Notes under the pieces: model-generated
Databases searched by the model: none
What the model was told of the DNA's origin: nothing
What the model saw: only the letters and a program-made list of their open reading frames with translations
Program-made: the position numbers and the translations under genes
Origin: Methanoculleus bourgensis MS2
Lineage (GTDB): Archaea > Halobacteriota > Methanomicrobia > Methanomicrobiales > Methanoculleaceae
Assembly: GCF_000304355.2 (NCBI RefSeq)
Contig: NC_018227.2
Coordinates: forward strand, 1,240,001-1,304,000
Reading direction: 5' to 3'
Length of the DNA: 64,000 bases
Shown: positions 12,406 through 32,685 of the stretch, one piece after another
Layout of the letters: each line of letters opens with the position of its first letter
Numbering within the stretch: the stretch's first letter is position 1

Positions 12406-12650
12406 TGAGACGGAGAACGGTCCTGATCCGGCACCGGGCTTCGCGATTCCGGATTTCAAGCAATTAATGCGGTTTCAACAACGGTTGAACCTCACCGGAA
12501 TCTACCCGGGAATACAGTGCATCCCGGGTCACGTTCGCGCCAATGGGGGCATCCCCTCTCTCCCGGATAGATGGTGCCCGCCCGGGAGCGGGGGCAGAAC
12601 GCCGATGCATGCGGGATTCGGCGCTACCCGCTATAAGCCCCGGCGGCAGT

Positions 12651-12700
12651 GCGGGGGAAGGGATTCGAATCGCAAGTTCCCGCGACCCCGGGCCCCAAAA
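12651..12700 (-). pseudogene. Degenerate tRNA 3'-half (old attachment-site remnant)
   Basis: The segment CGGCAGTGCGGGG-R-AAGGGATTCGAA is shared with the tRNA-Leu 3' half at 16,295-16,345, including upstream flanking bases. The position of the former anticodon loop (GGGCCCCAAA at 12,691-12,700) is kept at the same spacing of about 40 nt. The T-arm no longer pairs well, and no 5' half follows. It marks a duplication of the tRNA 3' region on the far side of the corrinoid operon. Confidence 0.6.
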
Positions 12701-12773: not shown

Positions 12774-13451
12774 ATGAGACCGGAAATCCCGGATCACCCG
12801 GGCCCGGACACATCTTCTCTCCTGATCTCTGATCTGGAAGAGGCGTTGCTGGCTGTCGACCGGGTGCGGGCAGGCAGGATCATCGAAGCGACCTGCGCTG
12901 CAAGTTCCCCTGTCTCCTGTATTGAGACCCTGATCGTCCCGGTTCTTGAGGAGATCGGGGAGAAGTGGGAGCAGGGACAGGTCGCCCTCTCGCAGGTCTA
13001 TATGAGTGGGCGGATCTCTGAGGAGATTGTCGCTACGATGCTCCCTCCGGGCTCCCCTGAGCGGATAACGCAACCGAAGATAGCGATAGCGGTTCTTGAA
13101 GACCATCACACCCTGGGGAAGCGGATCCTTCTTGCCGTGCTCCGGGCAGGCGGCTACGAGGTGACCGATTATGGCGCGGGGGTGACGGTCGACGGACTCG
13201 TGGAGCGCGTGATTCAGGACCGGATTGAGATCCTGCTCATATCCACGCTTATGCTCCCCGCAGCGCTCAGGGCAAAGGAGGCGGTCACCCGCATCAAAGA
13301 AGCGATGCCGGAGGCCCGGGTGATCGTCGGGGGAGCCCCGTTCAGGTTCGATGCAGACCTCTGGAAAGAGACCGGAGCCGATGCCGTCGGCCGCTCGGCA
13401 TCAGATACCCTCGCACTCGTGCGGGGGATGGCGGGGGCGGTGGTCTCATGA
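12774..13451 (+). CDS. Corrinoid (B12-binding) protein, MtaC/MtbC-like
   Basis: A 225-residue protein. An N-terminal helical cap (residues ~20-85) precedes a Rossmann-like B12-binding domain with the lower-ligand motif D-H-H-T-L-G (DxHxxG), then STLMLPA and GGAPF at the expected distances. In family terms it carries a methyl group on the cobalt between a substrate-specific methyltransferase and coenzyme M methyltransferase, or to a sensor. AGGAG lies 11 nt upstream of the ATG. It overlaps the next gene (ATGA). No MtaB/MttB-type substrate methyltransferase is adjacent. Confidence 0.9.
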   Translation: MRPEIPDHPGPDTSSLLISDLEEALLAVDRVRAGRIIEATCAASSPVSCIETLIVPVLEEIGEKWEQGQVALSQVYMSGRISEEIVATMLPPGSPERITQPKIAIAVLEDHHTLGKRILLAVLRAGGYEVTDYGAGVTVDGLVERVIQDRIEILLISTLMLPAALRAKEAVTRIKEAMPEARVIVGGAPFRFDADLWKETGADAVGRSASDTLALVRGMAGAVVS

Positions 13452-14497
13452 CCGGCGAGATGACCCCGGCCGAGAGGACGGCCGTGACCATGGGGTTTGA
13501 GGAGCCCGACCGTGTCCCGCTCTTTCTGCTCTTCACCATCTACGGGGCAAAGGAACTGGGGCTCTCCATCAGGGACTACTTCTCAAGACCTGAGTACGTC
13601 GCCGAGGGGCAGATGCGCCTCCAGAAGAAGTTCGGCGGCGACTGCCTCAACCCGTTCTGCTACGCGGCGGTCGAGGTCGAGGCATGGGGAGGGGAGGTGA
13701 TCTTCTCAGAGGTCGGGCCGCCCAATGCCGGCCGGCCGCCGATCCGGAGCCCCGAAGAGATTGAATCCCTCGAGGTGCCGCTCGTTGAGGAGAGCCCAGG
13801 CCTCCTCTTCGGGCTCAGGACGATCGAGTTGCTGAAGAAGGAGGTCGGCGATGACGTGCCCATCATGGGTTCGGTGGTATCCCCCTTCTCCCTCCCGGTG
13901 ATGCAGCTGGGTTTTGATGCATACCTCGACCTCCTGTACGGGGAGCCCGACCTCTTCTGGACGCTGATGAAGAAGAACGAGGAGTTCTGTGTTGAGTGGG
14001 CAAATGCCCAGGTTGAAGCCGGTGCCACCGCCGTCGGTTACGCCGACCCGCTTGCCTCGCCTGACATGATTCCCCGGGATCTCTACCGCAGGACCGGGTT
14101 TGTCGTAGCCCGGCGCACCATTCCCCGGATAGAGGCCGGGGTCGCAACCAGTCTCGCCTCGGCACGGGCTCTCCCCGTCATCGATGACCTGGCCGGGACC
14201 GGCAGTGTCGGTGTCGGCGTCAGCGCCTTCGATGACCTTGCCACCGTAAAGCAGCAGTGTACGGGGAGGCTTACCGTGCTTGGGAACCTGAACGCCATCG
14301 AGATGCGCCGGTGGACGCCTGCACAGGCAGAGGCTGAGGTTAAGCGCGCGATCGCCGCCGCCGGGCCGGGCGGCGGGTTTGTCCTCTCAGACAACCACGG
14401 CGAGATCCCATGGCAGATACCGGAGAGCGTCCTCATGGCGATCGCCGCCGCGGTGAGGAAGTGGGGGAACTACCCACTCGACTGGGTATCAGGATGA
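13448..14497 (+). CDS. Uroporphyrinogen decarboxylase/MtaA-like methyltransferase
   Basis: A 349-residue URO-D fold protein (TPAERTAVTMGFEEPDRVP... GPFS-type core; GGGFVLSDNHGEIPW near the C-terminus). True MtaA/MtbA enzymes hold catalytic zinc with an H-x-C pair in the LHICG segment. The equivalent stretch here reads SLASARALPVIDDLAG, so that pair seems to be missing; only the C-terminal region keeps a His. It may be a corrinoid-binding or demethylating relative rather than a standard coenzyme M methyltransferase. It is coupled by ATGA overlaps to the corrinoid protein before it and the kinase after it. Confidence 0.82.
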   Translation: MTGEMTPAERTAVTMGFEEPDRVPLFLLFTIYGAKELGLSIRDYFSRPEYVAEGQMRLQKKFGGDCLNPFCYAAVEVEAWGGEVIFSEVGPPNAGRPPIRSPEEIESLEVPLVEESPGLLFGLRTIELLKKEVGDDVPIMGSVVSPFSLPVMQLGFDAYLDLLYGEPDLFWTLMKKNEEFCVEWANAQVEAGATAVGYADPLASPDMIPRDLYRRTGFVVARRTIPRIEAGVATSLASARALPVIDDLAGTGSVGVGVSAFDDLATVKQQCTGRLTVLGNLNAIEMRRWTPAQAEAEVKRAIAAAGPGGGFVLSDNHGEIPWQIPESVLMAIAAAVRKWGNYPLDWVSG

Positions 14498-16260
14498 CAG
14501 GAAAATTCGGGGTGCTCTACTGTGAGAATCTGGCCCGGGAGATGGCCGCGGTGGTTGCCACCGGGGAGTTTCTGGAGATTCTCACAGAACCATTCCGCAT
14601 GGACTGCGGCGGGAGACGGGCTGGGTGGGACCGGTTCGTGATCGGCCACTCCCGGTTCCAGGAGAGCTGCGAGAAGGTATGTGTCCTCGGGTGCGGGTGC
14701 CTGAAGTGGATTGAGCCGCCCGGCCCTGCTGTGGTGATCCCGGACCTGATGCGGGAGGTCCTCCTCCCGGTCCCCCTCTATGATGCCTGCGTCCGGGAGG
14801 GGGCGTTCATGGTCATCCCGGGCATGCTCTCGCGGTGGAGTGAATATCTCGCGGGCCTCGGGTTTGAGGGGGAAGCAGCAGGGGAGTTCTGCAGGGAGTC
14901 GATCAGGAAGATCGTGCTCCTCGATACGGGCATTGACCCGGAGGCCTCCCGGAACCTGGCAGCCCTCGGGGACGACCTCGGGATCCCCATAGAGCGGATT
15001 CCTGTCGGCATCGAGCCGCTGCAGCGGTATCTTGCCCTCCAGTATCTCCAGTGGCGCCTGGAACAGGAGAAGAAGACATATCGGGACTCTATCGCCGCAG
15101 CAAACCAGAGGTCCGCCGATTACGCGATGACCATCGATATACTGGGCAGGATCACGGAGCTCCAGAGCGAAGAGACGGTGGCTGAAGAGATGCTTGACCT
15201 CGTTACAGTCCTGTTTGCTCCGGCAAGGATCGGGTTTGCCTCCATCGACGGGGGAGAGGCAGGCAGGATCATCAGCCGCCCTCCCGGTTACTATGACGCT
15301 CCGGGGCGGGCAGCAGAGTTCTTCGCGCCGGAAACACGGAATGCCATCCTGTCTGACAGGGACGGCCTCTCGATGGAAGTCAGGCACAAAAACCAGTGCG
15401 TCGGTGTCCTCGTGCTTGAGGGACTCGCCGTGCCGCACCGGGCTGCCGAGTATCTCAGCATCAGCCGGTCCGTGACTGAGGTCTGCGGTCTTGCTATAGC
15501 AAACGCCCGGACGTACCAGAAACTCCAGGAAGCCGTGATGGAGCGCGATAGGGAGATCGGGGAGCGGATGCGGGCAGAGAAGGCGCTCCGCGAGGCGAAC
15601 AGGAAACTTAACACCCTCTCGTCTATCACCCGGCACGATATACTGAACCAGCTGGCGGCGCTGCTTGGGTACCTTGAGATAACACAGATGGACCTGGAAT
15701 CGGGACGCCTGCCCGCGGACCCTACCCTTGTCCGGTACGTCGCAAACGAGCTGCAAGCCGCGCGAACGATCCAGCGGCAGGTCGAGTTCACCCGTTTCTA
15801 CCAGGACATCGGCGTGAAAGAAGCGGAGTGGCACGATGCGGAGACCCTGATCCGACAGGCGGCCGAAGAACTTCCGCTCTCGGAGGTCAGGGTGGATATC
15901 GGGGTTACGGGGCTCTGGGTCTATGCCGACCCCCTGATCGGGAAGGTCTTCTACAACCTCATGGAGAACTCGGTCCGGCATGGAGGGGATATCTCCCGGA
16001 TATCGTTTCTTGGATCCCGGGCTGAAGGCGGCCTCGTGATCACCTACACCGACGACGGCCGGGGCATCCCTGCTGCTGATAAGGAGCGGATCTTCCGCAA
16101 GGGTTTTGGCAAGAATACGGGGCTCGGGCTCTTTCTCACCCGGGAGATCCTCGCGATCACCGGTATCACCATCAACGAGACCGGTGTGGAAGGAGAAGGT
16201 GTCAGGTTTGAGATCTTCATCCCCGAGGGAGAGTACCGGCTTGTGGGATCTGATACCTGA
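14494..16260 (+). CDS. DUF1638-GAF-histidine kinase fusion
   Basis: A 588-residue protein without obvious membrane helices. Residues ~1-200 match DUF1638 (VLGCGCLKWIEPPG), a domain that in methanogens accompanies corrinoid methyltransfer genes. Residues ~225-370 read as a GAF-like domain. Residues ~395-588 form a histidine kinase: the phosphoacceptor helix SITRHDILNQLAALLGYLE, N-box NLMENSVRHGG and G-boxes DDGRGIP and GLGLFL. The 4-nt overlap with the MtaA-like gene argues for a shared role, plausibly sensing corrinoid or methyl status. No response regulator lies nearby. Confidence 0.85.
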   Translation: MTGKFGVLYCENLAREMAAVVATGEFLEILTEPFRMDCGGRRAGWDRFVIGHSRFQESCEKVCVLGCGCLKWIEPPGPAVVIPDLMREVLLPVPLYDACVREGAFMVIPGMLSRWSEYLAGLGFEGEAAGEFCRESIRKIVLLDTGIDPEASRNLAALGDDLGIPIERIPVGIEPLQRYLALQYLQWRLEQEKKTYRDSIAAANQRSADYAMTIDILGRITELQSEETVAEEMLDLVTVLFAPARIGFASIDGGEAGRIISRPPGYYDAPGRAAEFFAPETRNAILSDRDGLSMEVRHKNQCVGVLVLEGLAVPHRAAEYLSISRSVTEVCGLAIANARTYQKLQEAVMERDREIGERMRAEKALREANRKLNTLSSITRHDILNQLAALLGYLEITQMDLESGRLPADPTLVRYVANELQAARTIQRQVEFTRFYQDIGVKEAEWHDAETLIRQAAEELPLSEVRVDIGVTGLWVYADPLIGKVFYNLMENSVRHGGDISRISFLGSRAEGGLVITYTDDGRGIPAADKERIFRKGFGKNTGLGLFLTREILAITGITINETGVEGEGVRFEIFIPEGEYRLVGSDT

Positions 16261-16294
16261 TCCCCGGGCGCTACGGTTGATAGAAGAGCGGCAG

Positions 16295-16345
16295 TGCGGG
16301 GAAAGGGATTCGAACCCTTGAACTCCTGCGAGACTGGACCCTAAA
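16295..16345 (-). pseudogene. tRNA-Leu(UAG) 3' half at the left end of the integrated element (attL)
   Basis: Read on the reverse strand, this holds the last 42 nt of a tRNA-Leu (16,336 down to 16,295): variable arm, T-arm AAGGG-TTCGAAT-CCCTT, acceptor TCCCCGC and discriminator A. It is preceded by the 9-bp core GACCCTAAA (plus strand, 16,337-16,345) from the anticodon loop. Joined to the 5' half at 32,817-32,859 it gives a complete 85-nt tRNA with a perfect anticodon stem CTGGA/TCCAG. Confidence 0.93.
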
Positions 16346-16404
16346 CCTATCACATACACTTGGCGCTGTTTACACCTTTAACCGCGCCGGGAGAACGGTT
16401 GCCA

Positions 16405-17571
16405 ATGAATGTGATAGAGAAACTGAAGAACCTCGATCCGGTCAATAAAACGTATCTCGAAAAGTACATTCGCCACCTCAAGCTCAAGCAGCTGAAGCAG
16501 AAGACCATCGATACGAAGGTCTGGCGGATCTACACCTTCCTCTCCTGGAGCAAGTTCAGCGACGCACAAGAGGCAGGCCCGGAGCGGCTGGAAGACTACT
16601 TCATCGAACGAAGAGCGACCGTCAGCCCCTTCACCCTGCAGGGCGACATCCTCGAACTGAAGCTCTTCTTCCGCTGGCTTGTCCCCGACAGGGAGAAGGA
16701 ACTCTTCCGTAACATCCGGATGAGGCGTCCGCGCAAGCATCTCCCCGTCGACCAGTTGATCACCCGCGAGGACATCGTCCGGCTCGTCGATGTCTGCGAC
16801 AAGCCGCGTGACCGCGCGCTGATCATGCTCATGTGGGACTCTGGCGCCCGGATCGGGGAACTCCTGAGCCTCAACATCGGCCACGTCCAGTTCGACCGCT
16901 ACGGTGCGGTGGTGATCGTGAACGGCAAGACCGGGATGCGGCGCCTCCGGCTGATCAGCTCCGTGCCGGATCTGCAGACCTGGGTCAACACGCACCCGCT
17001 CCGTGCGGACGCAAACGCCCCGCTCTTTGTGACCTCCCGGAGGTATGGGCACGAGCCCCGGCGCATGAGTATCCGGACGGTTGAGAACAAGTTGAAGTAC
17101 GTTGCCCGGAAACTCGGGATGACGAAACCGATTCACCCGCACGCCATCCGCCACGCCCGGCTCACCGATCTGACCCGGAGCAACGGCAAGAAGCAGGGGC
17201 TCTCGGAGATGGAGCTCCGGCTCGTCGCCGGCTGGGAGAAGAACAGCGCGATGCCGGAGGTGTATGTTCACCTGTCCGGCGCGGATGTCGAGCGGAAGTT
17301 GCTGGAGAACGCCGGGCTCGTCGATGACGCGTCCGACCGGATGGATACCGCGCTCGAGCCCCGGCAGTGCCCGCGGTGCAAGGCCCTGAATGCTTATGAC
17401 GCCTTCTACTGTGCGACGTGCTCGATGGCGCTCGTCGAAGAGGCGGCGAGAAAGGTGGACGAGTCGACGGAGGAGGCGAAGAAGAGTGGGGAGTATCTGG
17501 AGTATATGGAGTTGGTTCGACAGTTGAAGAAGGATTTGGGTTTGTCAAAGATTCAACCCTCTCATAGTTGA
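16405..17571 (+). CDS. Tyrosine integrase with C-terminal zinc ribbon
   Basis: A 388-residue XerC/D-like recombinase. An N-terminal SAM-like core-binding domain (residues ~15-105) precedes the catalytic domain. The catalytic set is present: R149 (SGARIGELL), K175 (NGKTG), H246-x-x-R249 (HPHAIRH), W277 (GWEKN) and nucleophile Y287 (YVHLSG). A CxxC...CxxC zinc ribbon (CPRCKALNAYDAFYCATC, ~328-345) follows, as often seen in methanogen integrases. ATG 16,405 is used; the frame is open upstream to 16,360. It sits next to the attL core and should catalyse integration into the tRNA-Leu anticodon loop. The gene itself is not split by integration, unlike SSV-type integrases. Confidence 0.93.
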   Translation: MNVIEKLKNLDPVNKTYLEKYIRHLKLKQLKQKTIDTKVWRIYTFLSWSKFSDAQEAGPERLEDYFIERRATVSPFTLQGDILELKLFFRWLVPDREKELFRNIRMRRPRKHLPVDQLITREDIVRLVDVCDKPRDRALIMLMWDSGARIGELLSLNIGHVQFDRYGAVVIVNGKTGMRRLRLISSVPDLQTWVNTHPLRADANAPLFVTSRRYGHEPRRMSIRTVENKLKYVARKLGMTKPIHPHAIRHARLTDLTRSNGKKQGLSEMELRLVAGWEKNSAMPEVYVHLSGADVERKLLENAGLVDDASDRMDTALEPRQCPRCKALNAYDAFYCATCSMALVEEAARKVDESTEEAKKSGEYLEYMELVRQLKKDLGLSKIQPSHS

Positions 17572-17718
17572 TCCCGATAAATCACTTGCACTGAGCGCGG
17601 TTCTCACTTAAAACCGCTCTTCACCCATCTCTTTTTGTGTGCGGGAACGCTCCCGGGGCCACCTGACCCCGTTCTTTTCAGCACTGATCACCCCGATCCG
17701 CCCGCACAGGAGCAGTCT

Positions 17719-17862
17719 ATGAAAGAGATCACCCAGGAAGTACTCGACCACATCCCGGACCCCATTGCAAAGCTCGTCTGGGAGAAGTGGATCGCCGACG
17801 GTAAAGCCAGATTGATAACGCCACACTACGAGGGAACAAAATGCAAAGCACAGACAGGATAG
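17719..17862 (+). CDS. Small protein of the element (47 aa)
   Basis: It starts at ATG 17,719, seven bases after AGGAG. The product is soluble and helical (ITQEVLDHIPDPIAKLVWEKWIADGKARLI). It overlaps the next reading frame by 22 nt, so it is the first of three tightly packed small genes behind the integrase. No recognised family. Confidence 0.65.
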   Translation: MKEITQEVLDHIPDPIAKLVWEKWIADGKARLITPHYEGTKCKAQTG

Positions 17863-18122
17863 ACGGCAGCCCCCATGATGAAGCGTGCGCCAACATCGAT
17901 TCACACGGGACTGCCAACAGCTCTTCTCCGTCCGAAGGGATAAGACCAGCTACCGACAAGCGACGCGCGGGTATCGTCCCGCTCTACCTGGTCCAGCAGG
18001 TCGTGGCCGCCGAGATCGCTCGATACGGCCGGGCGGTGCGAGAGATCCACGTCGTCCGGACCGGCTGCCACTACTACACCATCACGACCCTGACCGCACG
18101 GGAGGCGGCCGGCCATGACTGA
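17841..18122 (+). CDS. Small hypothetical protein of the element (93 aa)
   Basis: It overlaps the genes on either side (22 nt and 8 nt). The first ~40 residues are low-complexity and polar. The second half is compact, with alternating hydrophobic residues (IVPLYLVQQVVAAEIARYGRAVREIHVVRTGCHYYTITTLTA), suggesting a small alpha/beta domain. No family recognised. The position suggests a regulator or accessory protein of the integrase/plasmid phase, but this is only inference. Confidence 0.6.
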   Translation: MQSTDRIDGSPHDEACANIDSHGTANSSSPSEGIRPATDKRRAGIVPLYLVQQVVAAEIARYGRAVREIHVVRTGCHYYTITTLTAREAAGHD

Positions 18123-18336
18123 GCCGGGGACCCTCTCCCACGGCACCGGCGGGGCGCTCCACATCTCCGTCGACGCCGAGAAGTACCGGATCGAGGCCGA
18201 GGACCTCAAGAACCTGCTCTTCTACGGCAGAGTGATCCCGATCGCGCAGGATCGCTCGCGGACGACCCCGGGCGGGATCCTGGTCAGCGAGGCCTCGCTT
18301 CGTGGCGGCTGTTTACGAAAAGAGTGCCAACACTGA
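18115..18336 (+). CDS. Small hypothetical protein of the element (73 aa)
   Basis: The third small gene. It starts inside the end of the previous one (ATGACTGA context at 18,115). The sequence begins with a beta-rich stretch (GGALHISVDAEKYRIEAEDLKNLLFYGRVIPIA) and ends in a basic, cysteine-containing tail. No family recognised. Confidence 0.55.
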   Translation: MTEPGTLSHGTGGALHISVDAEKYRIEAEDLKNLLFYGRVIPIAQDRSRTTPGGILVSEASLRGGCLRKECQH

Positions 18337-18376
18337 CCCTCCTACAAACAATCGCTCACTTTGAAAAGAAGGGATC

Positions 18377-18790
18377 TCAATACTCGCCGCCGTAGACCCC
18401 TGTCGCGATCTCATCCTCGATCGTGTCAGTCTCCTTTCTCGCGATCGTCTCCTCCCGCTGCTGCCGCAGTTCCCTGACAAGATCCCGTACGGCATAGACA
18501 TCGATGGCGTTGTATGAAGCCTCATCGTATTCCAGTGCTGCGATCTCCGCGAGCGCCTCCTCAATGCGGTCAAGGTCGCTATACTGGCCGATTGCAATCC
18601 GGAACCGGTCGAGTATCGGCTCTGCAGTGTACCGGAAGTTCCCCCTGATCGAGTGGTCAAGGAGGAGGTCGTTCACGGCATGCCCTCTCTCCGGATCGAC
18701 CACTATCTCGAGGACCGCCGGTGCGATCTCATAGGTATCGATATCGCCCGCCTCGAACCCGGCGATGATGGTTATCTGCACATCTGGCAC
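18377..18790 (-). CDS. Acidic small protein, third gene of the OGG/TPR-CSD operon
   Basis: A 137-residue, strongly acidic protein with no membrane helix. A beta-rich first half (VQITIIAGFEAGDIDTYEI...LEIVVDPERGH) is followed by long helices (LDRIEEALAEIAALEYDEAS...). It begins 18 nt after the TPR-CSD stop and so should be co-transcribed with it. I do not recognise the family. Its conserved company with a nucleic-acid-binding TPR protein and an OGG-fold protein would be the best clue to its role. Confidence 0.7.
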   Translation of the reverse strand: MPDVQITIIAGFEAGDIDTYEIAPAVLEIVVDPERGHAVNDLLLDHSIRGNFRYTAEPILDRFRIAIGQYSDLDRIEEALAEIAALEYDEASYNAIDVYAVRDLVRELRQQREETIARKETDTIEDEIATGVYGGEY

Positions 18791-18808
18791 GCTCCTGTCT
18801 CTTATGCC

Positions 18809-20119
18809 TTATCTCGCTGCAGTATCGTCCATCGGCCGGACGTTCACCGCCTTTGCAGCCCACTCATTCTTCTTCCGGTTAAACGATGGAACAACGTCGA
18901 ATACAACCTGGCTCAGGTCCTCCGGTGCCCAGGTGAGCTCGTTCTTGAACCCGATGTATCCGTCAGCGTCCGGCGGGTTGATGAAGAAGTACTCGCGCTC
19001 CGGATGCCCGAGAAAGATCCTGCCAACTACCCCCTCTGCAAGCGGCTTTTCCCGCTCATGCTGCACCGTCAGGGGACTCTGCTCGGTTTCGCAGCTGCTC
19101 CAGTGGCGGCTGCACCGATAGGTGAGTTCCTCGACAGAATCCTCGATTGAAGAGATGGCGTTCTCATCGAGGCGCTGCTGCAATTCAGGAGGGATGGACC
19201 ACGACATCCGCATCCGCAGGGCTGTGACCAGCGTATAGTGGTCCCGGGCCGCGTCCAGGCGACCGACCTGCTTGAAGATGTCACCCATCTCCATGAAGTA
19301 GCCGACCATGAACTCCGGGCGCTGCCCTGCTTTCACGGCCCGGGCCATCAGTGCCAGCGCCTCTTCCGGGCGGCCGAGCTGGTGGACAACTTTTCCATAC
19401 TCAAAGAGGTCGTAGTAGTCCGGCCGGACGTTCCGGCAGAGCTCGTCAAACGTTTCTGCCGCCTTTTCGTATTCACCGATGCCTGCATACGCTTTGGCGA
19501 GGTCGGATGCAAAGAATTTGTACTGGTTGGGGAACTTCTCGATCGCTTCACGGCAGAGGGGAAGGGCTTCTTGCGCGCGCCCGGTGCCAATGAGCCCCAA
19601 GTTCCGGTAGTGATACCAGCGGGCAAGGTAACTCCAACCTTCTTTTCCATCGGGGAGTTTCATCCCCGCCGGGCTGAGCAGCGAGGGATCGACCCGGGAC
19701 GTCCATGTTGCCAGCAGATTCCAGTCTTTGGAACCCTTTGCCGGTTTCATGATGGCGAAGGCGATATGGCTCACCGCCTGTGGGGGTGGGTTTCTGGAGA
19801 GGGCCTTCTCTCCGCAGGCGTGGAGCACCGGGACAGATGCCCCGTTATCTGCCATCTCTTCGACATAGCCGACATATGTCCATGCGACCTCCAGGTTTAC
19901 CCAGTTGTGATCGGGGTAACGCGCGGCGATATCGTCGGCGAAGGTCATCGCCTCGCTGATGGGGCGCAGTTTCCTGAGACAGTGCAGCAGGCCTGCAGCA
20001 GTATATCCATTGTGATGCTGGCTGTCCCAGAGTTCACGATAGATCTCCAGGGCATCCTCGTACCTTCCGTTCTTTCTCAGTTTGTTTGCTTCCTGTGAGC
20101 GTTCTTCAGGGGTATCCAT
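18809..20119 (-). CDS. TPR protein with C-terminal cold-shock-like domain
   Basis: A 436-residue protein. Residues ~1-320 are TPR-like helical repeats (EANKLRKNGRYEDALEIYRELW; AYAGIGEYEKAAETFDELC; VVHQLGRPEEALALMARAV; GDIFKQVGRLDAARDHYTLV). The last ~75 residues (GVVGRIFLGHPEREYFFINPP...GYIGFKNELTW...VVFDVVPSFNRKKNEWAAKAVNV) have the strand pattern of a cold-shock/OB domain with F-F and K-x-W-A-x-x-V. It probably binds single-stranded nucleic acid and protein partners. It starts 1 nt after the stop of the OGG-fold gene. Confidence 0.8.
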   Translation of the reverse strand: MDTPEERSQEANKLRKNGRYEDALEIYRELWDSQHHNGYTAAGLLHCLRKLRPISEAMTFADDIAARYPDHNWVNLEVAWTYVGYVEEMADNGASVPVLHACGEKALSRNPPPQAVSHIAFAIMKPAKGSKDWNLLATWTSRVDPSLLSPAGMKLPDGKEGWSYLARWYHYRNLGLIGTGRAQEALPLCREAIEKFPNQYKFFASDLAKAYAGIGEYEKAAETFDELCRNVRPDYYDLFEYGKVVHQLGRPEEALALMARAVKAGQRPEFMVGYFMEMGDIFKQVGRLDAARDHYTLVTALRMRMSWSIPPELQQRLDENAISSIEDSVEELTYRCSRHWSSCETEQSPLTVQHEREKPLAEGVVGRIFLGHPEREYFFINPPDADGYIGFKNELTWAPEDLSQVVFDVVPSFNRKKNEWAAKAVNVRPMDDTAAR

Positions 20120-20120
20120 G

Positions 20121-20849
20121 TCAATCCCTCCTTATGTTCTGGATTTTCTCCGAGGCATAATTAAAGAATGCCATCTCCACATCGGCGTTCAGCCAGATCC
20201 CGCGCTCGCGAAGACCCGCATTGGTGAGCGCCTCCGGATGCGGGCATGGTTGGCCTGCTGCATTGAGCTCTGCTGCTGCGTAGGTCAGGATGGCGGTCCA
20301 TGTGCCGTATTCTTCCGGCCAGCCCTGTTGGCCGGAGAGGATCGCCCAGCGCCCATCGACGGGTGTTGCGGTCAGGTCGAGGAGGTGCAGGTGGGCGGTG
20401 TCCCCCGCACCGAAGACCCGGACAATCCGGGTGTCGATCGCTCCAAAAAGTTCCGGCGCTGCGAACCGCAGGAGCTTGCTGGTATAAGTGGGGCCAAACC
20501 CCCGGATCTGGCCGCCAAGTACACGGATAGCGTTCTCCGGGCTCTCCCGCGCCCATCGGGCAACCTTTCCATCCTCAAAGAGGGCGATCCGGATCGGAGC
20601 AGGCGCCCGGATCCGCTCGATGTTCGGCAACCCGCCCCACCGCGCGATCGCTTTCAGGTGTTCCTCAGAGAGCGTCCCGGCTCTTGCAGCGTCGCCAACC
20701 TCACGCTCAAGCCGGCAGATGTCAGGGAATCCGTTCTGCCAGAGATCCCGCTTCCACGCATACGTGCGGTAGAGATCCGGGAAGTCGCAGGTCTCGATCA
20801 GGTCGCCGATACTGTCTTTCTTCGATGTGTTGAGATTCTGGTTGTTCAT
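20121..20849 (-). CDS. OGG-fold/HhH-GPD-like protein (putative DNA glycosylase)
   Basis: A 242-residue protein. The block IRGFGPTYTSKLLRFAAPELFGAIDTRIVRVFG (residues ~125-157, quoted here in parts: GFGPTYTSKLL, then AIDTRIVRVF) has the layout of the helix-hairpin-helix plus catalytic-Asp segment of HhH-GPD glycosylases (compare VDTHV in EndoIII). It is closest in style to the stand-alone OGG-fold family found in bacterial defence loci. The start at 20,849 follows GAGGAA by 8 nt. It heads a three-gene operon and is divergent from the CARF regulator. The activity is inferred, not shown. Confidence 0.6.
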   Translation of the reverse strand: MNNQNLNTSKKDSIGDLIETCDFPDLYRTYAWKRDLWQNGFPDICRLEREVGDAARAGTLSEEHLKAIARWGGLPNIERIRAPAPIRIALFEDGKVARWARESPENAIRVLGGQIRGFGPTYTSKLLRFAAPELFGAIDTRIVRVFGAGDTAHLHLLDLTATPVDGRWAILSGQQGWPEEYGTWTAILTYAAAELNAAGQPCPHPEALTNAGLRERGIWLNADVEMAFFNYASEKIQNIRRD

Positions 20850-20932
20850 TTCTGGTTCCTCGTGTGAGCAGGGCTCCCCCGTCGCCCTGTCCCATTGTTG
20901 TATACGCACAGGGAAACAATTAAAAAATTCAC
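20850..20932. promoter_or_regulatory. Divergent promoter between the OGG operon and the CARF regulator
   Basis: The 83-bp region contains GTTGTATACG (~20,894) and AATTAAAAAATT (~20,918-20,929). The rightward gene has no Shine-Dalgarno and may be leaderless. The layout suits control of the operon by the CARF-HTH protein. Confidence 0.4.
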
Positions 20933-21811
20933 GTGACTATTGTGAATATTGTGAAAACTTCTGATCCGATCCGGCCTGCCAGGGCCGATGGCCTGAACGA
21001 GCGGGTTCACCTGATCCCGCTCGGCCACGAGATCGACCGGGCCGTAAAGCCGTTTAATACATACCGGGCCGAGCGTGCGTACGTCATCGTGGTCCCGGAC
21101 AACGCCGACCTGGATGAGCAGATGCTGGAGAAGCAGCGCCACTATACGAAGAGGGTCTGTGAGGGGCTGCTGGCGGCAGGTGTCCGCCCTGAGGTCGCCT
21201 ACTGCAATATGTTTGACATCCTTGATGTGCTCCGGGTCGTCTCCTCCCTGATTGTGAGAGAGAAGCGGCAGGGGAACGATGTCCTCATCAACATGTCGGC
21301 CTGCGGCAGGATGACGTCGGTGGCCGTCACCATGGCGGCGATGGTGCATGGGGTTAGGGCGTACTATGTGCATGCGGACCGCTATGCAACGGGTGACGAT
21401 GCCGCACTCGAGGCGGACCACGGTCTGAGTATCGTGGAGACCGGGCAGGTCGAACCGCTGTATAACTTCTCCATCATGATGCCGGACGCCGAGTGCCAGC
21501 TGCTGCTGTGCGAGCTCTACCGGCGGGGGGAGGGGATGACCAGCGAGGACCTCTTCGGCTTTTTCCACAAGCAAGGATTTGAAGGATATGACGAATTGCC
21601 GCCCGAAAAGAGAAACAAGTCTGGCGAATACAGCTCGGGCTCGAAGAACCGGGAACTTCTCAACAGGACGAACCGAAAATACCTGTACAAACTGGAGGCT
21701 GCAGGCTACATCACGCGCATCTGGAGCGGCAGGCGCTTTTCTGTTCACATCACCGATGCCGGGAGGTACATTGCCTGTGTGAGCGGTCTGCTTGAGGGTG
21801 ACGCCACATAA
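20933..21811 (+). CDS. CARF-like (DUF6293/HFX_2341-type) HTH regulator
   Basis: A 292-residue protein. Residues ~24-150 form a Rossmann-like domain beginning RVHLIPLGHEIDRAV and carrying VLINMSACGRMTSVAVTMAA (residues ~117-136), the position of the CARF ligand loop. Residues ~170-285 are a winged-helix-like region (CELYRRGEGMTSEDLFGFF...NRTNRKYLYKLEAAGYITRIWSGRRFSVHIT). Family members are thought to sense nucleotide ligands and control transcription. Divergent from the OGG/TPR-CSD operon. GTG 20,933 is the first start; later GTGs are possible. Confidence 0.82.
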   Translation: MTIVNIVKTSDPIRPARADGLNERVHLIPLGHEIDRAVKPFNTYRAERAYVIVVPDNADLDEQMLEKQRHYTKRVCEGLLAAGVRPEVAYCNMFDILDVLRVVSSLIVREKRQGNDVLINMSACGRMTSVAVTMAAMVHGVRAYYVHADRYATGDDAALEADHGLSIVETGQVEPLYNFSIMMPDAECQLLLCELYRRGEGMTSEDLFGFFHKQGFEGYDELPPEKRNKSGEYSSGSKNRELLNRTNRKYLYKLEAAGYITRIWSGRRFSVHITDAGRYIACVSGLLEGDAT

Positions 21812-21894
21812 ACTGGAAGTAGATGGCTTACAACTCCCTCTATATCAGGTGTAGTGAACTGATGGGGGATTTGGAAGCGGTGATTGAGCAATAG

Positions 21895-23212
21895 CAGTAC
21901 TTCGCTAATTTTCGAACCAGCATATTCTCTGCCGAACCCGGAAACCCGCACAAAAACGAAAGATTTATATCGTTTGCAGGCGCCCCCTCATGCCTTTTGC
22001 CAAAAGCAAGAAGACGACCTGCAGAAAGAGTAACGACCTCAAGCCGAAAGAATGTTGTGCTCACGCCATTGCGGCGCTGGACCAGCACCTCACCATCCCG
22101 ATCCAGGGTCGGCTCACCCAGACCGACCTGTTTCAGGCTCTGGTCGGCATGGCCGCGATGCAACAATCGATTCACTCGATCACCGGGTTTTTGGAGCATG
22201 TACCCTGTGAGACGTCATTTCGCTATCATCTCAACAAACTGGCTATGGATGATCTGGAGCAGAAGAGCACTGCTATCCTCACCCACCTCGTGCACCACGT
22301 CCTGAAACCCGGGAACGCGTATCAGTTTGCGATTGACTACACCAACGATCCGTACTACGGGAAGACTTCCGACGAGAACGAATCATATATCCTCCGAAGC
22401 AAACGCAAGCAATCGACGAACGAATTCTACTCCTACATCACCCTCTACGTGACCACCAGAGACCGGCAGGTGACGTTGGCCGTGTATCCGGTGCGGCAGG
22501 GGATCGCAAAGGTTGGGTACATCGCCCGGTGCCTCGACCGGATTGCCGAACTCGGGCTCAAGGTCGAGGTCCTCTGCCTGGACCGGGAGTTCTATACCCG
22601 GAAGGTCTTCGGGTTTCTGACCCAGGTGCAGGTACCGTTCATCGTTCCCGTCAAGAAGCAGAGCAACCGCATGAAAGCACTGCTCCAGGGGACGCAGTCC
22701 CGGTATGCCGAGTACCGGATGAGAGGAAAACCATCACTTCCCCTGACGATTGCCATTGCCGTGAAGTATGCGAAGGGGAGACGAGGAAAATACGGCGCTG
22801 AGAATCTGGGCTACGTTGTCGGCGGTATTGCCTGGCATCCGCTCCGGGTGCACCGGATCTACCGATCACGGTTCTCGATCGAGGCATCCTACCGGATGCG
22901 CAACCAGGTGAAACCCAGGACGAGCACAAGAAACCCCGTGATTCGGTATCTCTATGCAATCATCTCGTTTCTGCTGAAAAACGTCTGGATCGCTCTCTTA
23001 TGGATACATTTCTCGCCGGTGAAGCAGGGACCGCGAACGATTGAAATGCGCGCGTTTCGATTCGATGCTTTTCGACTCATAATCTGGGAAGCGATCCGGG
23101 CATCGATGGGGATGGTGAAAGGAATTACGGTGTTACGGCAACGGGTTTAGAGAAAGGATGGTAGAACAAGGTCAAACAGAAGGAGAGGTGAGGGAGATTT
23201 AGCGAAGTACTG
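21895..23212 (+). mobile_element. Intact ISH3-type insertion sequence
   Basis: Terminal inverted repeats CAGTACTTCGCTAA (21,895-21,908) and its complement (23,199-23,212) enclose one transposase gene. A 5-bp target duplication AATAG is present on both sides (21,890-21,894 and 23,213-23,217). The copy is complete and therefore probably recent. It lies between the CARF regulator and the DUF4268 gene. Confidence 0.92.
21990..23150 (+). CDS. ISH3-family transposase (DDE)
   Basis: A 386-residue transposase. DDE residues are recognisable: Asp in FAIDYTNDPYYGK (~113), Asp in EVLCLDREFYT (~195) and Glu in RSRFSIEASYRMRNQ (~296). The C-terminal hydrophobic segment is typical of ISH3/IS4-like enzymes. 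TTTATAT at ~21,962-21,968 lies about 25 bp before the ATG, so the mRNA is probably leaderless. No frameshift is visible. Confidence 0.92.
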   Translation: MPFAKSKKTTCRKSNDLKPKECCAHAIAALDQHLTIPIQGRLTQTDLFQALVGMAAMQQSIHSITGFLEHVPCETSFRYHLNKLAMDDLEQKSTAILTHLVHHVLKPGNAYQFAIDYTNDPYYGKTSDENESYILRSKRKQSTNEFYSYITLYVTTRDRQVTLAVYPVRQGIAKVGYIARCLDRIAELGLKVEVLCLDREFYTRKVFGFLTQVQVPFIVPVKKQSNRMKALLQGTQSRYAEYRMRGKPSLPLTIAIAVKYAKGRRGKYGAENLGYVVGGIAWHPLRVHRIYRSRFSIEASYRMRNQVKPRTSTRNPVIRYLYAIISFLLKNVWIALLWIHFSPVKQGPRTIEMRAFRFDAFRLIIWEAIRASMGMVKGITVLRQRV

Positions 23213-23313
23213 AATAGGCACAGGCGGGCAATTATAAATTTTAGGAAAGGTTTAGACTTACTATTGTTGTTCCCGAGTTAATTCAAATACCCCTTCTAAA
23301 CGGAGCGAGATGA

Positions 23314-24285
23314 ATGGTTAGAAATCATTTTGGGAGACTAGAAGAGGTTGATCTCCGCGCTGGTTGGTTAGATGAGGCGCGGGATTTTACGCCCTGGCTT
23401 GCCCAGACTGAAAACCTTGAGATCTTGGGTGATGCTCTTGGGATGGAACTGGAACCCGTCAGTACTGAGCAGGGGGTGGGTCCTTACAAAGCTGACATTC
23501 TTGCAAGAGATCCGGCCACCAATACATACGTGCTCATTGAAAACCAGCTTGAGAAGACAGATCACTCGCACCTTGGCCAGATAATTACGTATAGTGCTGG
23601 ACTTGAGGCGAAGACCATCGTCTGGATCGCCAGAAGGTTTACCGATGAGCATCGTGCTGCACTCGATTGGCTCAATCAAATCTCAGAAGAGTCGCTCAAT
23701 TTTTTTGGCATTGAGGTTGAATTATGGAGAATTGGAGATTCCTCACCCGCACCTCGATTCAATGTCGTATCCAAACCCAATGAATGGACGAAGTCGATTC
23801 ATGCATCAAGACAACCTTCGGAATTGACGGATTCGCAAGGAATCCAGTTAGAGTATTGGAGTGGCTTTAACGAGTATCTCGAAAGCGTCTGCTCAAAGCT
23901 GAAACCCCGGAAACCGTATCCGCAGAATTGGATAGCATATGGGATTGGAAAAAGCGGCTTTACACTGGCCGCAAAAATTCATCAGCGTGAAAAATGGATT
24001 GATGTCGAGATTTGGGTTGGAGGTCAGCACAAAAATGAATATTTCCAGCAAATAAAGGAAAACTTTGAGCAGGTTGCGGCAGAGAAACTGAATCCCCATA
24101 TTGAGTGGATCTATCGGCCAGAGCGGATTGATCACCTCATCCGGTTGGTTCGACCGATGACGGATCCTGCAGACACTTCTGAATGGCACGAACAATTCGA
24201 GTGGATAGAAAATAATCTTAAGATGTTTCGTGAGTTCTTCTCCCCGATAATTAAAAGTCTGAACGTAAATGAAGGTGGAGACTAA
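23314..24285 (+). CDS. DUF4268 domain protein with PD-(D/E)xK-like N-terminus
   Basis: A 323-residue protein. The N-terminal half has the layout of a restriction-endonuclease-like core (ADILARDPATNTYVLIENQLEKTDHSHLGQ, residues ~63-92: D ... E-x-Q instead of the classical E-x-K). The C-terminal half matches DUF4268 (ARRFTDEHRAALDWLN; later GFTLAAKIHQREKWIDVEIWV). Such proteins occur in defence islands and near restriction genes. The base composition is clearly more AT-rich than its neighbours, pointing to separate acquisition. Function inferred only. Confidence 0.8.
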   Translation: MVRNHFGRLEEVDLRAGWLDEARDFTPWLAQTENLEILGDALGMELEPVSTEQGVGPYKADILARDPATNTYVLIENQLEKTDHSHLGQIITYSAGLEAKTIVWIARRFTDEHRAALDWLNQISEESLNFFGIEVELWRIGDSSPAPRFNVVSKPNEWTKSIHASRQPSELTDSQGIQLEYWSGFNEYLESVCSKLKPRKPYPQNWIAYGIGKSGFTLAAKIHQREKWIDVEIWVGGQHKNEYFQQIKENFEQVAAEKLNPHIEWIYRPERIDHLIRLVRPMTDPADTSEWHEQFEWIENNLKMFREFFSPIIKSLNVNEGGD

Positions 24286-24502
24286 CGACCGATTTTTGGT
24301 TCAAGGCGCCCTCCCTCGTTTAGTGTAGACTCACGGCGTTTCGACATCTCGTAGGTTCACAAGATCTCGGATAAAACCTAATATTTTCCAAAATTTGGCT
24401 GAAAATAAGGCGTTAATCCTGTGGCCAGTAACAGTGATAGAGTTGGAAGTAAGTTTGACAAAATGAACTTTTCTCTGGCAGGAAAGGGGGATTCTCCCCC
24501 TC

Positions 24503-25009
24503 TCACGCCAGGGCGGGCACGGCGTCCGCCCAGGTCTCGACGGCAGTCCGGATGGCGTCGTCCTGGTAGGACGAGATCCGGACGGTCTTCCGGGTGAAGG
24601 TGACGTAGTAGTCGTCACCGGACGGGTCGTGGCACTTGAGTTGAGCGTAGTAGGTCTCGCCGGCAAAGTTCCGCTCGGCGTCCCCGCCCATCGCGGTCGC
24701 AAGGGCCGCGTTCCCCATCACCGCCGCCGCGTTCGCATTGAAGGCGGCGATCGAGGGGGACTGGAGCGAGACGGTCCCGACACGCTTCCCCTCGCCGTTG
24801 AGGAAGTCCACCTTCGCGGTGTAGTGCTCGCGGTTTCGGACGACGGCAGCCACGGGCTGGCCGTCAGAGCCGGTATACCCGACGCACCCGAAGGGGTTGT
24901 CATCGATGATGGTTTCGATGAGGTTGTTAAACGACGTTACGTCGGCGATCGGGACGGTGAGGTCCCGGAGCGCCGTCTTGTTGACGGTCTTCTGCACGAA
25001 GTCTGCCAT
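24503..25009 (-). CDS. Virus- or plasmid-like hypothetical protein (168 aa)
   Basis: The start at 25,009 follows AGGAAG by 10 nt. The sequence is beta-rich with a segment of small residues in the middle (SIAAFNANAAAVMGNAALATAMGG) and ends in a helix (DDAIRTAVETWADAVPALA). No cysteine pairs or catalytic signature are apparent. The N-terminus (MADFVQKTVNKTALRDLTVPIADVTSF) and overall style recall small structural proteins of proviruses, but I cannot name a family. It is divergent from the coiled-coil/membrane protein at 25,191. Confidence 0.65.
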   Translation of the reverse strand: MADFVQKTVNKTALRDLTVPIADVTSFNNLIETIIDDNPFGCVGYTGSDGQPVAAVVRNREHYTAKVDFLNGEGKRVGTVSLQSPSIAAFNANAAAVMGNAALATAMGGDAERNFAGETYYAQLKCHDPSGDDYYVTFTRKTVRISSYQDDAIRTAVETWADAVPALA

Positions 25010-25190
25010 GGTTGGTACTTCCTGCCTGCATGCTCCCGGGAATATGACAGACAAGCATAGGATATGCGCCCAGGTAATATTAACCTGACTTTATCTTAGA
25101 CCACAGATTTGGCCCGGATTCCTGTGTATATCCTTTACGGTCAGGCTTTTGGGGTCCGATGGCCCATAGTCCTCCGGGAGGGTTATCAGG

Positions 25191-25433
25191 ATGACCGGGG
25201 AAAAGACCACCAGGGAGCTCGTTTACGAGACGAACCGGGATGTAAAGTGGATCTGCCGGGCGCTCCAGAGAATGGAGGCGCAGGACGAGGAGTTCGAGGC
25301 CCGGATCCGGGCGCTGGAGGGCTGGCGAGCCGAGAAAGTGGGCGAGGAGCGCCGGCTCTCGACGGTCAGCGCCGGCGCCGGCGGGGTCGTCGGCGGGGTG
25401 GTGGCGGTGCTGGTGAAGGTGCTCGGCGGATGA
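25191..25433 (+). CDS. Coiled-coil protein with C-terminal membrane helix (XhlA/holin-like)
   Basis: Eighty residues. A charged coiled-coil (residues ~10-50: ETNRDVKWICRALQRMEAQDEEFEARIRALEGW) is followed by one glycine/valine-rich membrane helix (~57-80: VSAGAGGVVGGVVAVLVKVLGG). This is the architecture of haemolysin XhlA-type phage accessory proteins. Together with the divergent 168-residue protein it suggests a viral ancestry for this part of the element. Confidence 0.6.
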   Translation: MTGEKTTRELVYETNRDVKWICRALQRMEAQDEEFEARIRALEGWRAEKVGEERRLSTVSAGAGGVVGGVVAVLVKVLGG

Positions 25434-25580
25434 TCGGCCATGTTGGATTTTCGTGCATAGTGCCTCTATCGGACAAATCAACGTCGATATGAGCGCAAGA
25501 GGTCCCCCGGCACAACTCTATTTTCACTTTCACCATGCGCGCGGCTCCGGCTTAAATAACCGCCTCCCGACGATCTCTGT

Positions 25581-26729
25581 ATGAGAACGCGACTCCTCAT
25601 GTCCGACCAGACGCTCTTCCGGAGCATCGATGTCTTCGAGATCGATTACGCTCCAGAGTTCTTCAACTACCGCGAAAGCCAGCTCAAGGACCTCGCCTAC
25701 CAGATCCGCCCCGCACTCGAAGGCGGGCGGGCTCTCTCCGCCATCTGCCGGGGTCTGCCCGGGACCGGGAAGACGACCAGCGTGCTCCGGATCTTTGCCG
25801 AGCTCGAACAGACCACAAAGAAGATCCTGCCGGTCTACGTGAACTGCCAGAACGACCGGACGAAGTACATGGTCTTCTCCCGGATCTACGCAGCGATCGT
25901 CGGCCACGCTCCGGCGCGAACCGGGATCTCGATCAGGTCGGTGATGGACGCGATCGGCGGCGCCCTGCAGCGGCAGGAGAAGAGCCTGATCGTCTGCCTG
26001 GACGACGCGAACCTGCTCCACTACAACAACACGCTCGGGGATGTTGTCAACTCCCTGCTCCGGCTGCACCAGGACTATCCCGGCGCCCGGGCGGCGGTCT
26101 TTGCGACGGTGAGCGACATGAACCTCGATCTCGCGAGCGATCTGAGCAAATGGGTCCTCTCGCCGTTCCGCCCCTCTGACATCTACTTCCCGCCCTACGA
26201 CGCCGACGAGATCCGGGGCATCCTCCAGGACCGGATCCGGATTGGGCTCTATCCCGGCGTGTTCTCAGTACAGATGCTGGACCGCATCGTCGAGCAGACG
26301 ATGGAGTCGGGCGACGTCCGGGTGGGGCTTGACCTGGTGAAGCGGGCGGTGCTGAACGCGGAGTGCGCCGCCCGCACCGAGGTCATCGAGGAGGACATCA
26401 CGAAGGCCTACGAGCAGGCAAAGCACATCCACCTCGCCTGCACGATCCGGGCGCTCTCAACGGACGAGCGGCTGCTGCTCCAGAGGATCGCGGAGTTGTC
26501 GCAGGAACAATCTGGCCCGCTGGTCTCCGGCGCGATCTACGGCCGGGTAGAGGAGACGCCGAAGGTCGGCTACACGGTCTTCTCCCGGCAACTCCGAAAG
26601 CTTGACTCGCTGCGATTGGTCGATCTGATCCGGGTGCAGGCCGGCGGGAGGACGAGCGAGGTTGCGCTGCGGTATGAGCCGGAGAAGGTGGTGCAGATCT
26701 GCGGGAAGCGGGGTATCGCTGAGGAGTGA
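25581..26729 (+). CDS. Orc1/Cdc6-type replication initiator (element variant)
   Basis: A 382-residue AAA+ protein. Walker A is GLPGTGKTT (~residues 58-66), and the Walker B strand reads SLIVCLDDANLL, with Asp-Asp in place of the usual Asp-Glu. A winged-helix domain occupies the C-terminal third (LQRIAELSQEQSGPLVSGAIYGRVEE). TTAAATAA ~27 bp upstream of the ATG suggests a leaderless transcript. It probably initiates replication of the excised element. No origin repeats could be read with confidence beside it. Confidence 0.9.
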   Translation: MRTRLLMSDQTLFRSIDVFEIDYAPEFFNYRESQLKDLAYQIRPALEGGRALSAICRGLPGTGKTTSVLRIFAELEQTTKKILPVYVNCQNDRTKYMVFSRIYAAIVGHAPARTGISIRSVMDAIGGALQRQEKSLIVCLDDANLLHYNNTLGDVVNSLLRLHQDYPGARAAVFATVSDMNLDLASDLSKWVLSPFRPSDIYFPPYDADEIRGILQDRIRIGLYPGVFSVQMLDRIVEQTMESGDVRVGLDLVKRAVLNAECAARTEVIEEDITKAYEQAKHIHLACTIRALSTDERLLLQRIAELSQEQSGPLVSGAIYGRVEETPKVGYTVFSRQLRKLDSLRLVDLIRVQAGGRTSEVALRYEPEKVVQICGKRGIAEE

Positions 26730-27651
26730 GTGGGCAGCATCTGTTCACGATGCTAAAGATCCAACTTTTTTGGGGTATGGAGACTGCCGGTGGGGGCCTT
26801 GACCGGCAGACCACACTCCCTCGCGGTCGTGGCGTCTGCCTGATCTCTTCTTCCTGTCCGGGCACTCTGACGGCCGCGACCGGCTCGGAACTCGCCGGCC
26901 GCCGCCTGCAGGGTGCGCGCTCCGCACCGTGTTATCGCACCGTGCTCCGCGCGGGAGGCGGTGGCCCTGTGGGGCCCCCCCTCTATTACGAGTTTTTCAG
27001 ATGGTTCGATCCGGTCCGGTCAGTTGGTTCTCCCCATCCACGGCCTATCGCCCTGCACTGCCCGCCCCTGAGGGGGCGAAACGACGTTCCATCAGGAACG
27101 GAGTTCGAGCACCGTCAGGTGCGAATTGCGACGGGCCATAGGGCCGGAGCATGAACACCGAAGGTGTGAGCGAGGAGGCGCGGAGCGCCGGGCGGTGGGG
27201 TCTGTTTGAGGGATGGCCTTGCGCCACCCCTCCGTGCGAGGAGCGTGGTGCGCAGCACGACGTGACGAGCACTTCCTAGCAGACGATGACCGGCGAGTTC
27301 CGAGCCGGTCATGGTCGTCAGAGGTCCCATACCGGAAGAGAAGACTAGGCAGACGCCACGAGCGGAGGGCGGCGAGGGGGCACGAAGTGCAGCGCCGGAG
27401 GCGCGACCCTCGCTGACCGGAGGGAGTGAGGTCTGCCGGTGGAGGGTCCCCGGTTTCGGGCTATTGCCATGGACTGCCCTCTCTCCTGGGAGAGGACTGG
27501 CTGGGGTGGGTAGCCTTGAGGCTGAAGTGGCCGGCAACGCCAGGACAAGAGCCTCGCCCCCCGGGGAGCAGAGCGCAGTCCAGCGACGCCACGCCCTCCT
27601 CGGGAGCAAACGGGAACAGATAATACCGGAGGGACTCCTACACCTCCCTGT
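26730..27651. repeat. Non-coding inverted repeat pair in the gap after orc1/cdc6
   Basis: This 0.9-kb gap carries two diverged copies of a ~120-bp sequence in opposite orientation (about 26,790-26,905 and 27,275-27,445). Both contain ACCGGCAGACC, GTGGCGTCTGCCT and GACCGGCTCGGAACTCGCCGG (read on the strand of each copy). The hairpin string at 27,060-27,190 lies between them. No convincing gene is seen. It is a candidate for the replication or partition region of the element. Confidence 0.6.
27060..27190. repeat. String of six short hairpins (hairpin-string element, copy 2)
   Basis: Six successive perfect or near-perfect small palindromes with 3-4-nt loops: GCCCC-tga-GGGGGC, CGTTCC-atca-GGAACG, GCACC-gtca-GGTGC, GGCCC-type, ACACC-gaa-GGTGT and GGCGC-gga-GCGCC. 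They are spaced about 22 bp apart by linkers such as GAGTTCGA and GAATTGCGA. Stems differ from one another while linkers are alike. Confidence 0.7.
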
Positions 27652-27942
27652 ATGCCGTTTACCGTGTCGTTCAACATGGTGCAGGTGATCGATATCGCGG
27701 AGGCGGAGGACCGCCTCCTGGACCTCTACAACACAATGCTGATCGACCGCGGGCAGATGCATCCGTCGACTGACGAGGTCGATGCGGTCGTCTTCGAGGT
27801 CCTCGGGGAGCTCGAGGCTTACCTCCAGGGCCTCGCCCGGGAGGGGGGCCTCCGCGGCCGAGACCTCAAGCCGATCGTCCAGGCCTGGGTTGAAGAACGC
27901 CTGGCAGAGGCAGGAGCCGGATCCCGCCCGGATGTGACATAG
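27652..27942 (+). CDS. Small acidic hypothetical protein of the element
   Basis: A 96-residue, mainly helical protein (ITEAEDRLLDLYNTMLIDRGQ-like first half; GDLKPIVQAWVEERLAEAG at the end). The start could also be ATG 27,676. It shows no known domain, and no strong ribosome-binding site is seen. High GC matches the orc1/cdc6 side of the element rather than the AT-rich genes that follow. Confidence 0.55.
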   Translation: MPFTVSFNMVQVIDIAEAEDRLLDLYNTMLIDRGQMHPSTDEVDAVVFEVLGELEAYLQGLAREGGLRGRDLKPIVQAWVEERLAEAGAGSRPDVT

Positions 27943-30206: not shown

Positions 30207-30237
30207 TTGCCAATGTTCTGGCGTTCGAACCGATACG

Positions 30238-32675: not shown

Positions 32676-32685
32676 ATGAATAGCA

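Follow-up and report, generated by a model that had tools for sequence, protein, structure and literature searches.

What does a corrinoid protein do in one operon with a relative of the coenzyme M (CoM) methyltransferase MtaA and a histidine kinase? This question is raised by three genes of Methanoculleus bourgensis MS2, which lie in a 64,000-nucleotide stretch of contig NC_018227.2 (positions 1,240,001 to 1,304,000), here called the window; all coordinates below are those of the window. The original prediction took the three products for a sensory device, consisting of a corrinoid carrier, a modified uroporphyrinogen decarboxylase (URO-D) protein and a kinase as output. Our analysis supports this: the triad crosses the boundary between archaea and bacteria, its outputs are swapped, its neighbours are signalling genes, and no methyl metabolism matches it. 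We conclude that the three genes probably constitute one cross-domain sensory cassette with an exchangeable output. The genes and their junctions are as follows.

12774..13451, plus strand: corrinoid protein gene, 225 aa, with a four-helix B12-binding_2 cap and a Rossmann B12-binding domain (domain matches)
13448..13451, plus strand: ATGA overlap of the corrinoid protein and URO-D genes (sequence; ATGA or a similar overlap in most relatives)
13448..14497, plus strand: MtaA/URO-D-fold protein without zinc ligands, 349 aa, a cassette-specific subfamily (domain match, model)
14494..14497, plus strand: ATGA overlap of the URO-D and kinase genes (sequence)
14494..16260, plus strand: DUF1638-GAF-histidine kinase, 588 aa (domain matches, alignment, model)

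The three open reading frames thus lie on the same strand and are coupled through ATGA at both junctions, as had been predicted.

A conserved triad with changing outputs

The URO-D alignment was scanned against 84,980 species genomes and matched at 327 places; the best 80 loci were retained for neighbourhood counts. Of 78 loci that could be tested, 75 have the carrier gene immediately upstream of the URO-D gene; a DUF1638-like gene follows immediately downstream in 64 of 76. The suggested search for conserved triads in other genomes therefore recovered the order carrier, URO-D, DUF1638 at most of the best loci. The loci listed span Pseudomonadota, Thermodesulfobacteriota, Chloroflexota, Nitrospirota, Planctomycetota, methanogens and others. 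Because the identical gene order is kept in many genomes, a chance arrangement is excluded. The family is sharply bounded: in the phylum search its members matched at E<=1.8e-129 and the next URO-D protein at 4.4e-43. In the tree the family forms one clade against the MtaA-type proteins with full support, and the Methanomicrobiales branch first, with the root and the long connecting branch leaving the direction of transfer uncertain.

The third gene is constant in front and variable behind. The family hidden Markov model (HMM) finds GAF in 70 of 73 third genes and DUF1638 in 66 of 73. A domain scan of 56 third genes gave DUF1638 in 49 (E<=0.001), HATPase_c in 45, REC in 10 and GGDEF in 9. Single scans place kinases, hybrid kinases and cyclases behind one and the same type of front half, and the GGEEF/GGDEF motif is intact in all nine cyclase versions. 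Sensors are typically recognised by such a build, constant in front and variable behind. Third genes without DUF1638 retain the GAF domain, followed at the end by either a kinase or a short PICxxCKKIR domain. The latter, PICxxCKKIR...GYW, is a short C-terminal domain that replaces the kinase at loci L087, L091, L094, L107, L112, L114 and L117; it is possibly an unrecognised output domain.

The flanking genes also belong to signalling. On the same strand, response regulator domains occur in 10 of 30 upstream and 14 of 31 downstream flanks, and HATPase_c in 12 of 30 and 8 of 31, respectively. RamA and MttB, representing corrinoid activases and methyltransferases, are not among the most frequent flanking-gene domains listed. 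Around the canonical DUF1638 genes of Methanosarcinaceae, no corrinoid gene was found within about 1.5 kb, a weak control with short flanks and one query. At two loci of the family (L084 and L121), two URO-D copies surround a single corrinoid gene. At a third (L109:3354-5171), the family triad is preceded by a second, distant corrinoid and URO-D pair (27-29% identity), behind which a kinase match lies.

Within the Methanomicrobiales, complete triads in the same order were found in ten other genomes, four of the same genus and six of other genera or families. Identity to the window is 62-87% for the URO-D protein, 56-79% for the carrier and 35-73% for the kinase. The nearest named relative among the matches listed is Methanoculleus sp. 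Afa-1 (URO-D 82%). Among the 35 genomes listed for the genus, the kinase is matched over its full length at high score in six. In the window, neither a response regulator nor a substrate methyltransferase adjoins the triad; candidate REC proteins are encoded elsewhere in the genome, none beside it. This isolation had been predicted and stands for the window, but it does not extend to all relatives, since a response regulator gene lies upstream of the triad at loci L042 and L043. At L041 and L044 an upstream PAS-kinase gene overlaps the corrinoid gene.

At loci L034-L038, in other genomes of the genus, a multi-PAS protein is encoded upstream of the triad. It ends after a HisKA-like helix region, and no HATPase domain was found in it. 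The window genome has paralogues of this protein elsewhere, none near the triad. We rejected a lost PAS-kinase partner in the window, as no remnant of the relatives' upstream PAS gene was found near the triad. One of these loci (L034:7232-12032, genome G151) has lost the carrier gene as well as the first, N-terminal third of the URO-D gene, and its kinase is interrupted by an in-frame stop; this marks either a decaying copy or an assembly fault.

The carrier and the zinc-less URO-D protein

The corrinoid protein matches B12-binding_2 (2.4e-12) and B12-binding (3e-21). Its central motif is the following.

13101..13118, plus strand: DxHxxG motif (D110-H112-G115), invariant in 55 of 55 orthologues; site of the lower axial ligand when a corrinoid is bound base-off/His-on

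S157, L159 and GGAPF are invariant in the same 55, and all features of methyltransferase corrinoid proteins (cap and Rossmann domain, DxHxxG, Sx(L) and GG motifs) are present. From this conservation, base-off/His-on binding of a corrinoid is expected. The protein scored 81.6 against TIGR02370 (cut-off 215.3) and lower still against other named equivalogs, and it thus represents a separate subfamily. CarH structures are among its PDB matches. The light-sensing motif of CarH is W-x9-EH. Its EH is absent from the window protein, which reads W65...S-Q-V-Y; W65, Q74 and Y76 are invariant in 55 of 55.

The second protein matches PF01208 at 2.6e-49. Its model (mean predicted local distance difference test, pLDDT, 95.2) has MtaA 4ay7 as the best PDB match, with a template modelling score (TM) of 0.85 and 22% identity; HemE gives a TM of about 0.8. 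It had been claimed that this protein lacks the H-x-C zinc pair of MtaA, and two sites decide the point.

14150..14158, plus strand: S235-L-A237 at the MtaA His-x-Cys site; position 235 is His in 63 of 71 members (Ser here), position 237 is Ala in 68 of 71 and never Cys
14390..14404, plus strand: DNHGE (315-319) at the MtaA PGCG Cys loop, a family signature; N316, H317, G318 and E319 invariant in 71 of 71

In the alignment, none of the 71 family members has Cys at either zinc-Cys position, whereas most of 12 control MtaA-type URO-D genes from the same phylum retain both HxC and GCG. Judging from these residues, both Cys ligands of the MtaA zinc site are lost family-wide, and the claim is confirmed. 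A full zinc site together with a typical CoM pocket, looked for in the sequence alone, was not found; the protein may yet have an alternative metal site. The protein also scores far under the NCBIfam cut-offs (77 vs 400 and 63 vs 600; 93 vs 235 for TIGR01463). We therefore rejected membership in the MtaA-type CoM methyltransferases, on the grounds of S-L-A and DNHGE, the 71 members without Cys and the scores below curated cut-offs. The likeness to MtaA/MtbA (with MtaC/MtbC) lies in the URO-D TIM-barrel fold and a corrinoid protein partner; the triad protein differs in lacking the His-Cys-Cys site, forming a separate clade, scoring below the cut-offs and being tied to a signalling gene.

Two published groups of zinc-site variants are relevant here. 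The type 1 mlp gene clusters likewise join MtaA-like proteins to a corrinoid protein and are widespread beyond methylotrophic methanogens (PMC10418091). In them, several Mlps that retain His-Cys-Cys are joined by a Ram/RACE activase and surrounded by sulfur or selenium genes (Kountz and Balskus, PMC10418091), whereas the triad has one zinc-less URO-D protein and a sensor-output gene, with an activase elsewhere in the genome. Membership in such a cluster was rejected on account of the missing zinc ligands and the cluster make-up. His-Cys-Cys goes with methyl transfer to or from S and Se, and in O-methyltransferases the Cys ligands are replaced or lost (PMC10418091). CdmB, a chloromethane methyltransferase of the URO-D superfamily, needs no zinc and shares with the triad protein its superfamily and a corrinoid protein partner; it differs in being metabolic, with an MTII, and no sensor gene is described there (PMC13222342). 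In view of these zinc-free relatives and Cys-less O-methyltransferases, the loss of ligands speaks against CoM methylation and not against methyl transfer itself.

The third gene and the surroundings of the operon

Besides HATPase_c, Pfam matches DUF1638 and, weakly, the H-box in the window protein. Together with the model, these divide the protein as follows.

14494..15009, plus strand: DUF1638-like domain (residues 1-172), an alpha/beta domain in the model; Pfam and profile matches; Cys10, Cys38 and Cys69 conserved
15013..15153, plus strand: long helix joining DUF1638 to GAF, about residues 174-220 (model)
15169..15423, plus strand: GAF domain, about residues 226-310, more constant than any other part of this gene (AlphaFold model, PDB matches, family HMM)
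15634..15636, plus strand: phospho-acceptor His381 in the RHDILNQ H-box, invariant in 11 triads of the order
15937..16227, plus strand: HATPase_c with N, G1 and G2 boxes (5.7e-14); N492, D520 and GLGL conserved

The N-terminal 365 residues were modelled at pLDDT 92 as an alpha/beta domain (1-172), a helix (174-220), GAF (226-310) and a coiled coil (314-364). DUF1638 is below the Pfam cut-off in the window protein (22.8 vs 27 bits, residues 101-179) and above it in all ten orthologues scanned singly (30-47 bits). A profile comparison with the canonical DUF1638 of Methanosarcinaceae gave 95.7% probability over the TPGW and DTG region. Between 49 and 51 of 56 family members keep each of Cys10, Cys38 and Cys69. 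The PDB matches of the N-terminal model are GAF proteins and a dual-sensor kinase, with no solved structural relative of the DUF1638 part among them. Pfam does not call GAF in the window protein; the AlphaFold model with its PDB matches and the family HMM reveal it. DUF1638 had been proposed to stand in place of the usual sensor domain. This holds only in part, since GAF lies on the sensor side as well and is the more constant of the two. The H-box His and the N, G1 and G2 boxes of a histidine kinase are all present.

We compared how these parts diverge with the carrier. Over 31 kinase loci, carrier divergence correlates with that of DUF1638 at 0.78, of GAF at 0.68 and of the kinase domain at 0.64; in bacteria only, the values are 0.66, 0.59 and 0.37. 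The bootstrap 5-95% range of the difference between the DUF1638 and kinase correlations is 0.03-0.27. This co-divergence, calculated without correction for the species tree, agrees with the view that DUF1638 may face the carrier.

MsmS and RdmS of Methanosarcina are comparable in that they are signalling proteins associated with methyltransferases in methanogens; they bind heme. They have no H-box, and RdmS is not an autokinase (PMC11784639), whereas the H-box of the window kinase is intact and a corrinoid bound to another protein would serve it as sensor cofactor. In the split methionine synthase of Phaeobacter, a DUF1638 gene also adjoins a stand-alone corrinoid protein; there DUF1638 stands alone, with no kinase and no URO-D protein (PMC5764234). 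Genetics shows that this DUF1638 is required for split B12-dependent methionine synthesis, probably in reactivation (PMC5764234), a role which later work repeats as a prediction. No description of the cassette was found in the open-access literature that was searched.

Possible traces of mobile DNA surround the operon. Direct repeats of 27 bp, 96% identical and resembling a tRNA 3' end, lie on either side of it at 12643-12669 and 16288-16314; given these repeats, the triad operon itself could formerly have been mobile. An integrated element (16286-32736) probably begins directly behind the triad. A phage-type integrase gene (16360-17571) adjoins a tRNA 3'-half repeat at about 16303-16345; this repeat shares 93% identity with a portion of a tRNA-Leu gene located at 32686-32770. 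The presumed element contains a Cdc6/Orc1-like gene (25581) and a DUF4268 gene (23314).

What the cassette may sense

We propose that the corrinoid protein would carry the sensing cofactor. The URO-D protein would dock on it and either load it from a methyl or alkyl donor or test its state. The DUF1638-GAF part would read either the corrinoid protein itself or the whole complex, and helical linkers would pass the signal on. In the window the output that receives it is a histidine kinase; at other loci it is a hybrid kinase, a diguanylate cyclase or some other domain. Since the window genome has a RamA-like activase gene far from the triad, Co(II) could be re-reduced. Complex formation, the direction of signalling and the corrinoid state as input (methylated, Co(I)/Co(II), loaded or unloaded) we infer from the arrangement of the parts. 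Tentatively, and with rather less confidence than the cassette itself commands, we suggest a cross-domain receptor class, not described before, in which a zinc-less MtaA-like enzyme methylates or inspects its dedicated carrier, and DUF1638-GAF reads methyl-cobalt and drives a phosphorelay or cyclic-di-GMP.

Several observations weigh against the sensory reading or parts of it. The mirror-tree difference is small, comes from 31 rows and ignores the species tree. About one tenth of the third genes have GAF and no DUF1638, so that in these something other than DUF1638 must do the reading. The URO-D pocket is very strongly conserved (71 sequences, mean identity 69%), which agrees with a real ligand or reaction and goes beyond the needs of a purely structural reader. 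The window copy is divergent, as its S235 and its subthreshold DUF1638 show. The alternatives that follow are different details of the same sensor, and the confidence placed in each thus overlaps with that placed in the sensory reading.

The alternative that survives best may be right, though we stop short of favouring it: the URO-D protein would be a trigger enzyme, a zinc-free methyl or alkyl donor:corrinoid methyltransferase like the O-demethylases or CdmB, which would methylate the carrier in the presence of an external compound, and the kinase would read methyl-Co(III). Zinc-free URO-D methyltransferases do exist (CdmB, PMC13222342; Cys-less O-methyltransferases, PMC10418091). The invariant polar residues N177, N186, H317 and E319, the near-invariant D200 and the fully intact corrinoid binding motifs of the carrier are consistent with an active enzyme. 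Against it, the carrier has no known methyl acceptor enzyme that would return it to its starting state.

We are more doubtful of a sensor for redox or cofactor status. In it the URO-D protein would act only as a structural transducer, and the corrinoid on the carrier would report either the supply of corrinoid or the oxidation of Co(I)/Co(II). The genetic tie of DUF1638 to a B12 reactivation step (PMC5764234) agrees with it, the three conserved DUF1638 Cys could form a redox or metal site, and anaerobes are found among the hosts, as are microaerobic organisms that oxidise sulfide or methane. However, the conservation of the URO-D pocket exceeds what a scaffold needs.

That the genes form a metabolic methyltransfer pair, a demethylase and its carrier with their own regulator, is improbable. 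Corrinoid and URO-D proteins are the usual core of such systems, but the cluster has no second methyltransferase or activase and signalling genes surround it, and the output gene is the constant third member. The window genome is complete (2.79 Mb) and encodes neither MttB nor MtaB; the triad genes are its only URO-D, only B12-binding_2 and only DUF1638 matches. Since MttB, MtaB, a second URO-D and a second B12-binding_2 protein are all missing genome-wide, a methylotrophic role of the triad is unlikely, and we rejected metabolic methylotrophy as the principal explanation. A light sensor of the CarH kind we consider extremely improbable: CarH, a light-triggered repressor, shares the cap domain family and uses the same B12-binding_2 and B12-binding fold in signalling, but the missing EH motif led us to discard CarH-type photoreception, many hosts live in the dark and a URO-D partner is foreign to CarH.

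If the sensory reading is true, a corrinoid methyltransferase pair seems to have been turned into a sensor; in the receptor class suggested above, the carbon-cobalt bond would serve as a signal, a form of organometallic signalling. Methyl carriers of the B12 type would be signal inputs in many environmental microbes, among them methanogens, methanotrophs, sulfate reducers and large sulfur bacteria. The diguanylate cyclase fusions make this idea directly testable by a simple product assay. It would also explain why MtaA-like and corrinoid genes occur in organisms without methylotrophy, and would caution against annotating such genes as CoM methyltransferases or uroporphyrinogen decarboxylases. 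DUF1638 would gain a concrete role as a reader of corrinoid proteins.

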